Assembly: GCA_902624455.1 (NCBI GenBank)
Contig: CACNXQ010000006.1
Span: 1 to 64,000, forward strand
Source: an uncultured Pelagibacteraceae bacterium
Lineage (GTDB): Bacteria; Pseudomonadota; Alphaproteobacteria; Pelagibacterales; AG-422-B15
DNA: 64,000 nucleotides
Direction: 5' to 3'
A model generated the notes under the pieces. It was not told where the DNA came from. It ran no database searches and was given only the letters and a program-made list of their open reading frames with translations. A program made the translations under genes and the position numbers. Shown piece by piece: positions 51,309-55,786 of this stretch (positions within the stretch are counted from its first letter, which is position 1; each line of letters opens with the position of its first letter).

Positions 51309-51995
51309 TTAGTCGGCTTCATGTCCACTTTGAATTAAGTCATCTATATTTTCATCTTCACCAAATGGCTCAATTTGAGATTGATCAATCTCTTTAGGTT
51401 CTTTTATATCCAAATTAGGAGGTAAACGACTCTCTAAAAGTCCTGCAGCCTTGAGTTCTTCCAGGCCAGGCAAATCTGAAATTTGCTCAATATTAAAGTA
51501 TTCTAAAAATCTCTCAGTTGTCCCATATATAATTGGACGTCCTGGCACTTTTTTTCTACCTATGGGTCTTACCCAATTAAGTTCCATCAAAACATCTAAG
51601 GTTCCAGGGCTGAAGTGAACTCCTCTTATATCTTCAACTTCTGCTCTTGTAACTGGTTGATGATAGGCAATAATTGACAATGTTTCAGTTGCAGCTTTAG
51701 ATAATTTTCTCTGAACAATCTTTTCCTTTTTCATCATTGGTGATAAATCAGTTGCAGTTTTAAAGCTCCATTTATTACCTGTTTTGACAAGGTTTACACC
51801 ACGACTTTCATATTGAGCTTTTATTAGATTTAACAATTTAGTTAAGTTAGCGCCTTTAGGCAATCTTGCCTTGAGACTTTCCGCATCTAAAGGTTCATTG
51901 GCCGCAAAGAGTAAGGCTTCGAGAATTCTTAAATTTTCCCGATGCTCTGATGGAAAATCCATTACATTACTTGTTTTACTTTCTTCAGACATCAC
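51309..51995 (-). CDS. scpB: Segregation and condensation protein B
   Basis: ILEALLFAANEPLDAESL, LSIIAYHQPVTRAEVEDIRGV, GRKKVPGRPIIYGTT. Confidence 0.96.
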   Translation of the reverse strand: MMSEESKTSNVMDFPSEHRENLRILEALLFAANEPLDAESLKARLPKGANLTKLLNLIKAQYESRGVNLVKTGNKWSFKTATDLSPMMKKEKIVQRKLSKAATETLSIIAYHQPVTRAEVEDIRGVHFSPGTLDVLMELNWVRPIGRKKVPGRPIIYGTTERFLEYFNIEQISDLPGLEELKAAGLLESRLPPNLDIKEPKEIDQSQIEPFGEDENIDDLIQSGHEAD

Positions 51996-52785
51996 TTATT
52001 TTAGGTAAATCCTCATCTTGTTTATTTTTTATAAATACAGGACCGAAAGGCATTAATTGCTGAACTTCGAGAATACCCTCTCTAACTAATTCCATCGCGG
52101 CCGCAAGTGTCCCAGCAACTCCAGAGCGGGCATTTTTTCCTGAAGAAAATTCTGTAGGTAAAAATTTTTCTAATCTTGTCCATTCAGGAACATCACCTAT
52201 CATTCTTTGGAGGCGGGTTAATGCATCTTCCATCGAGAATACTGCTGGTCTTTGTATTGTCATAGATGAGTATGCTGATTTATATCTTTGATCAGCATAA
52301 GATTTTAATAAATCGTAATAATTTAGATAATATTCTGGAGTGCGAATAAGTCTTATTCCCTCTGGCATTCCTCTATTAAAAAAATCAGTATTTAGTTTTG
52401 GTAAATTCATAAGTTTTTCAGATGCTTGTCTTATTGCTTCAAGTTTTTTTAATTGAAATTTTAATCTTTCAGCCATTTCTTCTGCTGTTAATTCCTCACC
52501 TGATTCCTCTCTTGGTATAAGAAGGTTAGATTTTAAGTAAGCAAGCCACGCAGCCATAACTAAATAGTCAGCAGCTAGTTCAAGATTTTTATCTCTGACC
52601 CTTGCAATAAATTCTAAATATTGTTCAGTTAATTGCAGAATTGAAATCTGCATCAAATCCACTTTTTGAGATTTAGCTAGTGCTAACAATATATCCAAAG
52701 GCCCCTCATAAGCCCCTAGGTTGACGATTAAATCGTCAGAGGATAATTGAGGAGAGTTTTCGTAAGTATCTGATTTAACTTCCAT
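51985..52785 (-). CDS. scpA: Segregation and condensation protein A
   Basis: YEGPLDILLALAKSQKVDLMQISILQLTEQYLEF, AADYLVMAAWLAYLKSNLLIP. Confidence 0.96.
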   Translation of the reverse strand: MEVKSDTYENSPQLSSDDLIVNLGAYEGPLDILLALAKSQKVDLMQISILQLTEQYLEFIARVRDKNLELAADYLVMAAWLAYLKSNLLIPREESGEELTAEEMAERLKFQLKKLEAIRQASEKLMNLPKLNTDFFNRGMPEGIRLIRTPEYYLNYYDLLKSYADQRYKSAYSSMTIQRPAVFSMEDALTRLQRMIGDVPEWTRLEKFLPTEFSSGKNARSGVAGTLAAAMELVREGILEVQQLMPFGPVFIKNKQDEDLPKISDV

Positions 52786-52833: not shown

Positions 52834-53850
52834 CTATTCTTGCACCTTAATCAACAATTCATTCAATTCTTCATCAATCAATTTTGTATCACATTTATTT
52901 TCTTTAAATATTATGCTAGTTAAGTCTTCTTGATGAGTTATTGGATAATGTTTTTTTTCAATACAGTTTGCTATCTCATTCATTTCATTGATGTTTCCAT
53001 TACAGTGAAGGACTATATCGCATCCTGCTTCAAGTGCTTTAGATGATGCTTCTTGCAAAGGTAAATTTATTGCCTTCATAGAAATATCATCTGTTATCAG
53101 TGTTCCTTTGAACCCTATTTCATCTCTAAGTACTTGATTGATAATTTTTTTTGAGAAAGTGCATACATTTTGTTCGTCAATATCAGAATAAATAATGTGA
53201 GCAGTCATTCCCAATACACAACGTGAGTTAAATTTAAATGGATAAAAATCGCTAGCTGACATGTCAGATCTTTTTGAATGAACATATGGTAAACCTAAAT
53301 GACTATCTACATTGGCTCTACCATGACCAGGCATATGCTTAATAATTGGAGCCACACCGTTACTATTTAAAATATCAATCACCTCAGATCCATAACTTGC
53401 AACTATATCTCTATCATTTGAAAAAGACCTATCACCAATGATGCCACTTTCATTTGCGTCAGGAATATCTAAGACAGGTATACTATTAACGTTTATTCCA
53501 AGTTTTTTTATATAAGTTGATATAAGTTTATAATTAAGTTGAAATATTCTATTACCTATTTCAACAAAATTTTTTCTCAGGTTAAATAATTTTTTTGCTG
53601 AGGGGAACTTAAATGCTCCTTTGAAATTTAATCTAGATACTCTTCCACCTTCTTGATCAATTAAAATAGGAATTTCAGTACCATATATTTTCTTAATAGA
53701 GTCAGTTAGAATTTTTATTTGATCCTCTGATGAACAGTTTCTTTCAAAGAGGATGACTCCCCAAGGACGATATGCTCGCAAAAATATTTCTTCTTCTTTT
53801 GTGATGTTAGTCCCTTTGAGACCACAAATTAAAGGTATAAATTCTTCCAT
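52834..53850 (-). CDS. nagZ: Beta-N-acetylhexosaminidase (GH3)
   Basis: PILIDQEGGRVSRL, KHMPGHGRANVDSH, LITDDISMKAI. Confidence 0.95.
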   Translation of the reverse strand: MEEFIPLICGLKGTNITKEEEIFLRAYRPWGVILFERNCSSEDQIKILTDSIKKIYGTEIPILIDQEGGRVSRLNFKGAFKFPSAKKLFNLRKNFVEIGNRIFQLNYKLISTYIKKLGINVNSIPVLDIPDANESGIIGDRSFSNDRDIVASYGSEVIDILNSNGVAPIIKHMPGHGRANVDSHLGLPYVHSKRSDMSASDFYPFKFNSRCVLGMTAHIIYSDIDEQNVCTFSKKIINQVLRDEIGFKGTLITDDISMKAINLPLQEASSKALEAGCDIVLHCNGNINEMNEIANCIEKKHYPITHQEDLTSIIFKENKCDTKLIDEELNELLIKVQE

Positions 53851-53855
53851 ATCTT

Positions 53856-54050
53856 TTATTGACCTAAATTATATATGCCAAGATCAGGTGTTTTAATGCC
53901 TTCTTTATCTTCAGGCAATACTCGGTAATCTTTTAAATTTGAATCAATATTTAAAATTCCCTCATCGTTACTATTTTTTTTAAAATAAATAGATAGAAAA
54001 AAAATTAATAAAACTACAAATGATATTGTGATCAGCAATTTAAATTTCAT
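53856..54050 (-). CDS. Short single-TM protein, apparent truncated homologue of the SPOR-domain protein encoded here in relatives
   Basis: Between argS and nagZ; N-terminal TM followed by DYRVLPEDKEGIKTPDLGIYNLGQ, no SPOR domain. Confidence 0.7.
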   Translation of the reverse strand: MKFKLLITISFVVLLIFFLSIYFKKNSNDEGILNIDSNLKDYRVLPEDKEGIKTPDLGIYNLGQ

Positions 54051-55786
54051 TGCATTTCATCTGGAGCAGAAACACCAATTAGACTCAATCCTGACTTAAG
54101 TGTTTCTTGGGTCGCAATCAACAATGCAATCCTCACATTGCTAATTTCAGGCCGTTCTTCATCAATAAATTTGTTATTCTTATCAATTTTCCCCTGGTTC
54201 CATAAAGAATGAAAAGATGAAGAAAGATCATATAAGTAATAAGATATTCTATGAGGTTCATATAATTTTACTGCTGTTTCAATAACACCTTTCCAATCTA
54301 AAAGTATTTTAATTAGCTCTATCTCACCTTCTTTATCAAGGAGACTAAAATTACAATTATCAAAATTGGTTAAATCAATATTCATATTTGTTTTTTTAAG
54401 TTTATTTATTACTGATGAAATTCTTGCATGAGCATATTGAACATAAAATACAGGGTTATCTTTTGATTGCTCTGTAACTTTTTGCACATCAAACTCAAGA
54501 GGAGCTTCATTTTTTCGATACATCATCATAAATCTTATGCTGTCGCTTCCAACTTTATCAACCATTTCTTTTAGAGTAATAAATTCTCCAGATCTCTTTG
54601 ACATTTTTACAAGCTTTCCATTTTCAACCAATTTAACCATTTGACACAATTTAGCTGTAAACTCTGCTTTATTATTAGTTAAAGCTTTAACTGAGGCATT
54701 CATTCTTTTTACATAACCTCCATGATCGGCACCTAATATATCAATTAAGTGATTTGAACCTCTTTGGATTTTGTCAAAATGATATGCAATATCATTTGCA
54801 AAATAAGTCCATTCTCCAGTTGATTTTTGAAGAGGTCGGTCGATTTCATCTCCAAATTTAGTAGACCTAAATAGAAGTTGCTCTCTTGGCTCCCAATCCT
54901 CTATTTCCTTACCTTTTGGTTTTTCAAGAGTGCCTCTATATATCATATCCATATCTTTAAGACGATTGATAGCATCATCTATTTTGCCCTCAACAATCAA
55001 TGATTGTTCTGAAACGAACAAATCTTGATTTATTGAAAGCGAAGACAAATCAGATTTAATTCTGTTGAGCAAAAAATCTATAGTCTCCTGTCTAATTATA
55101 TCTAAGTGCTCTTTATTATCTAAGATATCGTTACCATGTTTATTTAAAATATGTCTTGCTACATCAACTAAGTATTCTCCTGGATAAAAATTCTCAGGAT
55201 AATTTTCTGATATATTTTTAACAAGTAATTCATTAATTCGTATTATAACTGAACTTACTAATTGAGAGATTTGTATACCGGCGTCATTCACATAATACTC
55301 TCGTGTTACTTTATGGCCTGTTTTTTCTAATAAGTTTGCTAATACATCACCATAAACAGCGCCTCTGCAATGTCCGATATGTAATGGTCCAGTTGGATTC
55401 GCAGAAACATATTCAACATTAACATTTTTGCCACTGCCAATATTTGTAGGTACTAATTCATTCGTTTTTAATCTTAGGGATAGAAACTTGTGCCACAAAG
55501 TTTTCCTTGTCCAAAAATTTATAAAACCAGGACTTGCAACTTCAATTTTTTCAAAATCGTCTGAAGCTCTTAGTTTTTCAGCAAGTTCTTCCGCAGCATT
55601 TAATGGCTTTATTTTGAGCGTCTTGCTATTAACCATACAAATATTTGTACTTATATCCCCATTATCTTCTCGTTTTGGTCGCTCAATAACAAATGAGGAG
55701 TTATAAATCGTTCTATAGTCAAGATTATATTGCTCCGCAAATTCACGTGCTACTAGCTCTCTTAAATATGAATAAATATCATTCAT
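54047..55786 (-). CDS. argS: Arginyl-tRNA synthetase
   Basis: VEYVSANPTGPLHIGHCRGAVYGDVLANLL, KMSKRSGEFITL. Confidence 0.98.
   Translation of the reverse strand: MNDIYSYLRELVAREFAEQYNLDYRTIYNSSFVIERPKREDNGDISTNICMVNSKTLKIKPLNAAEELAEKLRASDDFEKIEVASPGFINFWTRKTLWHKFLSLRLKTNELVPTNIGSGKNVNVEYVSANPTGPLHIGHCRGAVYGDVLANLLEKTGHKVTREYYVNDAGIQISQLVSSVIIRINELLVKNISENYPENFYPGEYLVDVARHILNKHGNDILDNKEHLDIIRQETIDFLLNRIKSDLSSLSINQDLFVSEQSLIVEGKIDDAINRLKDMDMIYRGTLEKPKGKEIEDWEPREQLLFRSTKFGDEIDRPLQKSTGEWTYFANDIAYHFDKIQRGSNHLIDILGADHGGYVKRMNASVKALTNNKAEFTAKLCQMVKLVENGKLVKMSKRSGEFITLKEMVDKVGSDSIRFMMMYRKNEAPLEFDVQKVTEQSKDNPVFYVQYAHARISSVINKLKKTNMNIDLTNFDNCNFSLLDKEGEIELIKILLDWKGVIETAVKLYEPHRISYYLYDLSSSFHSLWNQGKIDKNNKFIDEERPEISNVRIALLIATQETLKSGLSLIGVSAPDEMQ

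Follow-up and report, generated by a model that had tools for sequence, protein, structure and literature searches.

The argS-nagZ interval of the window

The stretch of DNA analysed here (the window) is 64,000 nucleotides long and comes from a genome of 1.32 Mb in 15 contigs that is 99% complete; those of its relatives that bear names are single-cell genomes of the SAR11 type. Between argS and nagZ it contains a 64-aa ORF, and two further genes lie beyond nagZ (Table 1). The ORF is tightly packed between its neighbours. The tetranucleotide ATGA holds both its start codon and the stop codon of argS, an overlap of 4 nt, and its own stop codon is only 5 nt from the nagZ ATG, so that there is no room for SPOR sequence after the ORF. 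Both the sequence and AlphaFold2 predict a single N-terminal membrane anchor; in the AlphaFold2 model pLDDT is about 85-94 across residues 1-20 and the helix extends beyond the anchor read from the sequence. The tail was modelled with low confidence and has no secondary structure, as might be expected of a short peptide that takes up its fold upon binding a partner. A PDB sequence search gave no match.

Table 1. Genes and segments at the argS-nagZ locus of the window
Feature	Position	Strand	Remarks
Stripped ftsN descendant, 64-aa bitopic ORF MKFKLLITISFVVLLIFFLSIYFKKNSNDEGILNIDSNLKDYRVLPEDKEGIKTPDLGIYNLGQ	53856..54050	-	Anchor and juxtamembrane motif, without SPOR
Membrane anchor, about residues 3-23	53982..54044	-	From sequence; AlphaFold2 helix 2-29
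Conserved segment IDSNLKDYRVLPEDKEGIKTPDLGIYNL, residues 35-62	53865..53948	-	Homologous to the FtsN juxtamembrane motif
argS	54047..55786	-	Upstream of the ORF; found at the same place across the class
nagZ	52834..53850	-	Downstream of the ORF; 5-nt gap
scpA	51985-52785		Beyond nagZ; named by resemblance
scpB	51309-51995		After scpA; named by resemblance

The interval gene in other Alphaproteobacteria

The DNA 3' of argS was sampled in 80 genomes of Alphaproteobacteria, with a single genome for each family in most cases. In 71 of these the first product encoded after argS is a membrane protein, with a length of 149-505 aa and a median of 298. The preliminary description of the locus had named a juxtamembrane motif in SPOR proteins encoded between argS and nagZ, and such a motif is real in most of the 71 interval proteins, where it lies directly past the membrane and has the form P.(I/V).A...P.K.(R/K)P(E/D).PGG...P.QDK.(V/I)Y. 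Beyond it there is often a VERLLPPPEEP block, followed by a Pro-rich linker and a SPOR domain. Because 63 of the 72 interval proteins scanned match SPOR, and 43 of the 72 match NF050813, the NCBIfam model for Caulobacter FtsN, the interval gene across Alphaproteobacteria is, judged from these sequence matches, ftsN of the Caulobacter type. The juxtamembrane segment therefore gains a candidate function; the preliminary description had not identified the gene as ftsN.

The interval protein of genome G145 (L152:74-709) has a partial SPOR match with a LysM domain behind it, which looks like the replacement of one wall-binding domain by another in progress. In genome G149 (L153) nagZ comes directly after argS, with no gene between them and no ftsN in the interval; Amidase_3 is present in this genome.

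Conservation and selection within the family

The window genome belongs to a family that we refer to as f1; the same order includes a second family, f2, with a named member labelled Pelagibacteraceae. The argS-nagZ junction was read in 36 f1 genomes in which the 3' end of argS and the DNA following it are intact (the window genome plus 25 and 10 others), and all 36 have an ORF of 59-69 aa with one anchor and the same type of tail. The preliminary description stated that the window ORF keeps a transmembrane segment and a segment matching the motif and then stops, with nagZ 5 nt further on. This reading was confirmed, the family genomes being alike in this respect, and none of the sister genomes encodes a complete SPOR domain there. 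A sequencing artefact or frameshift hiding a SPOR domain is ruled out by the occurrence of the same ORF in the 36 genomes. The sole exception in f1 is the single-cell contig QBZX01000014.1, which has an inverted chimeric junction inside the ORF (L061:1040-1400) that is probably an amplification artefact. Since single-cell assemblies may be chimeric in this way, counts of absence in such genomes are to be discounted.

An alignment of 17 f1 sequences shows no variation at I35, N38, Y42, R43, P46, D48, L57, I59 and Y60 (window numbering), and tail residues are invariant across the genus of the window genome plus a second genus. Tails of further genera were aligned as well. The dN/dS ratio in close relatives, a check that had been proposed for the locus, turned out to be low and to be lowest in the motif half. 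By the Nei-Gojobori method it is 0.082 for the whole ORF in one clade (15 distinct sequences) and 0.200 in a second (11 distinct sequences); for the last 34 residues, that is the motif half, the two clades give 0.064 and 0.107. By these measures the 64-aa peptide is under purifying selection, which acts more strongly on the tail than on the anchor. The tight packing of the ORF in a streamlined genome would also fit a decaying remnant, or a spacer that couples argS to nagZ and has no function as a protein, but with a dN/dS of 0.06-0.11 in the motif half and residues that are invariant across two genera we regard this explanation as improbable in the extreme.

Relationship of the tail to the FtsN motif

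The alignment suggested in the preliminary description places the tail in register with the juxtamembrane segment of the argS-nagZ SPOR proteins. When an HMM of the class motif was run against 36-aa tails together with 14,000 shuffled tails, the 21 best matches were all real tails. The tail of the window ORF is weaker, at 9.7 bits with this HMM, and of 2000 shuffles of this tail one scored higher. In an HHalign comparison of the f1 tail profile with the periplasmic profile of the class the probability was 88.8% and the score 27.5, while the best of 100 column shuffles scored 13.6 (0/100 at the real score). The register pairs IDSNLKDYRVLPEDKEGIKTPD--LGIYN of the f1 tail with VRADETPFKIKAEDQGVPGISHQDKLVYG of the class, and with part of the anchor added the probability was 95.9% (E 6e-9). 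A class profile built without Pelagibacterales sequences was also run over 44 whole genomes. Its seven best matches were exactly this ORF in seven related genomes (E 4.4e-5 to 0.04); it had no match in the window genome, where the copy has diverged further and is the most diverged of its genus. According to the HMM and HHalign results the motif P.K..P(E/D).PGG...P.QDK.VY is present in the ORF, and the gene position and the anchor also fit FtsN.

That ftsN gave way here to a small membrane protein of other origin, with an accidental likeness to the motif, is very unlikely. The ORF is short and of low complexity, and the window copy by itself is only weakly similar, which would fit chance likeness. 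Against this, the profile comparison reaches about twice the score of all 100 column shuffles, the register is exact, the distance from the membrane is equal and the locus is the same.

The 64-aa ORF has no Pfam match to SPOR (PF05036) and matches neither NF050813 nor TIGR02223; the cut-off of NF050813, 300 bits, was also missed by the interval protein of Parvibaculum (64.7 bits). As neither SPOR nor the FtsN models were matched, we call the ORF a stripped ftsN descendant and not a full FtsN. From the sequence comparisons, it descends from alphaproteobacterial ftsN, with the anchor and the motif kept and the linker and the SPOR domain lost.

Two other short ORFs at the locus

All argS-nagZ intervals read in Pelagibacteraceae (f2; L113-L142) contain a bitopic ORF of 85-87 aa without SPOR. 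Its tail is conserved and in most cases ends in ..LP.LENDT.NIIEYV..KKKFNFWKLL. The FtsN motif was not detectable in this ORF, since 2 of 100 shuffles scored as high, and homology of this miniature to the motif was rejected on that ground. A third miniature, an ORF of 47-48 aa (..FDNYLKYIFFDNFITITADEFDFIK) that also has no SPOR, is conserved between argS and nagZ in 12 genomes (L150:78-218, L235-L246), and its family includes a single-contig member of 1,410,127 bp. Position, topology and size suggest that the 85-87-aa and 47-48-aa ORFs also descend from ftsN. That two marine lineages have motif-less miniatures at this locus indicates that the motif is not indispensable everywhere. We tentatively raise the possibility, about which we remain rather doubtful, that streamlined marine alphaproteobacteria have cut FtsN down on three or more occasions at this one locus. 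What is left in each case would be an anchor and a lineage-specific peptide, a trigger that needs neither SPOR nor a septal amidase and works without the classical positive feedback.

SPOR, amidases and the division genes

The preliminary description had left it to be checked whether the window genome has another SPOR protein. No SPOR match above the cut-off was found in this genome, and a second SPOR-type FtsN elsewhere in it was rejected accordingly; the weak match is the degenerate C-terminal SPOR of an RlpA-like lipoprotein (L001:1453-2310), at 15-17 bits against a cut-off of 21 bits. The lipoprotein gene adjoins those for an MltB-type lytic transglycosylase and a DacA-like D,D-carboxypeptidase. 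Among Pelagibacterales SPOR is above the cut-off in 21 of 58 genomes, mostly in frames of 253-289 aa, and it is absent from every argS-nagZ interval read in the order.

Septal amidases of the Amidase_3 family make denuded glycan, the ligand of SPOR. Amidase_3 was found in none of the 58 Pelagibacterales genomes and is present in 65 of 80 other alphaproteobacteria. The absence of both Amidase_3 and SPOR is consistent with co-loss, although not as a rule: genomes G110 and G176 are without Amidase_3 and have kept SPOR, which weakens the view that SPOR must go once the amidase is lost. An Amidase_2 protein occurs in all 30 Pelagibacterales tested; that of the window genome is AmpD-like and has no obvious signal peptide.

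On the synthase side ftsL, ftsI, ftsW, ftsQ, ftsA and ftsZ are all present. A missing FtsZ had been suspected, there being no ftsZ between ftsA and lpxC, and was rejected when the gene was found beside mraZ on another contig. In related genomes ftsZ lies between mraZ and rsmH, whereas in most alphaproteobacteria it lies between ftsA and lpxC.

Proposed function of the ORF

The suggestion of the preliminary description that the short segment has a selected function in its own right is supported by the homology and the low dN/dS; its biochemical role is one that we infer. In Caulobacter the sole known essential domain of FtsN sits in the periplasmic linker (PMC4211646), and SPOR-less FtsN variants can replace native FtsN, yet no longer condense at mid-cell (PMC10336132). 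In E. coli the FtsN segment L75-Q93 is enough to start constriction and has been modelled between FtsI and FtsL (PMC10390529). We think it probable that the ORF is a still-functional FtsN core, an FtsN reduced by nature to a minimum and able to activate FtsWI with no targeting by SPOR. The anchor would keep the tail peptide on the periplasmic side of the inner membrane, and the motif would bind the FtsI/FtsL(B)/FtsW complex in the manner of the essential segment of E. coli FtsN, switching on septal wall synthesis. With SPOR gone, self-reinforcing recruitment to amidase-made denuded glycan would be gone as well, and therefore the protein would be expected to reach the septum only through binding the synthase complex. 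Loss of Amidase_3 in the order may have removed the ligand of SPOR and so relaxed selection on that domain. The motif would then be the alphaproteobacterial activating segment, and f1 would have kept only this segment; it may coincide with the Caulobacter essential domain H1. In the periplasm the motif is predicted to be necessary and sufficient.

Alternatively, the ORF may descend from ftsN but use its motif for a task different from FtsWI activation, such as contact with a partner in wall remodelling or a scaffold (DipM-like, Tol-Pal), or stabilisation of the divisome. The periplasmic part of Caulobacter FtsN does bind DipM (PMC10336132), the FtsN-like RgsS of Sinorhizobium meliloti works with Tol-Pal and Rgs proteins (PMC7327166), and sequence data do not tell the partner of the motif. 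We nevertheless find this unlikely: a strongly reduced lineage is expected to retain the essential activity first, and in E. coli and Caulobacter the essential activity lies in this part of FtsN.

FtsN is the trigger of cell division. For Alphaproteobacteria the active segment of FtsN is poorly delimited, and the SPOR-amidase feedback is treated as the main route of accumulation. If the ORF is the minimal FtsN that we propose, the periplasmic part has shrunk in one lineage to about 30 residues that are fixed and selected, and those residues become the candidate activator. This suggests that what counts for turning division on is the stretch of about 30 residues. The 64-aa protein also offers a small peptide of natural origin that could serve in structure prediction and in reconstitution with FtsQLBWI. 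Our results further suggest that the SPOR-amidase loop has no part in the division of some abundant ocean bacteria.

Comparison with known systems

With FtsN of the Caulobacter type (CC2007; NF050813) the ORF shares the argS-nagZ locus, the single anchor and the juxtamembrane motif. It differs in having no Pro-rich linker, no VERLLPPPEEP block and no SPOR domain, its cytoplasmic part is short or absent, and the motif is two residues shorter inside. We propose that the tail works like the L75-Q93 segment of E. coli FtsN, each being a short periplasmic peptide next to an anchor, Pro-rich at first and then aromatic/aliphatic. This is a likeness by proposed action, without demonstrated sequence homology, and the W83/Y85/L89 helix of E. 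coli has no clear counterpart in the motif. In E. coli FtsN the SPOR domain is not essential, as is proposed for the SPOR-less ORF. The cytoplasmic FtsA-binding part of E. coli FtsN is absent from the ORF, and the ORF is naturally complete at 64 aa, whereas the truncation of E. coli FtsN is experimental.

RgsS of S. meliloti (PMC7327166) is likewise an alphaproteobacterial bitopic FtsN-like protein and is needed for division, but it represents the opposite extreme, with 945 aa, a cytoplasmic part of 600 aa and a SPOR domain. According to one review FtsN is absent from those obligate intracellular bacteria that it covers (PMC10591338), and our literature search found no paper describing FtsN in SAR11. 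The shrunken ftsN of Serratia symbiotica (PMC5013485) is a further natural loss of the non-essential part, including SPOR, in a reduced genome. S. symbiotica is, however, a host-restricted gammaproteobacterial endosymbiont, while the carriers of the ORF are apparently free-living marine bacteria in which it is fixed family-wide and purifying selection was measured. Natural shrinkage of ftsN is therefore known from S. symbiotica, and what appears to be new is a family-wide, selected form in marine bacteria that is reduced to the anchor and the motif.
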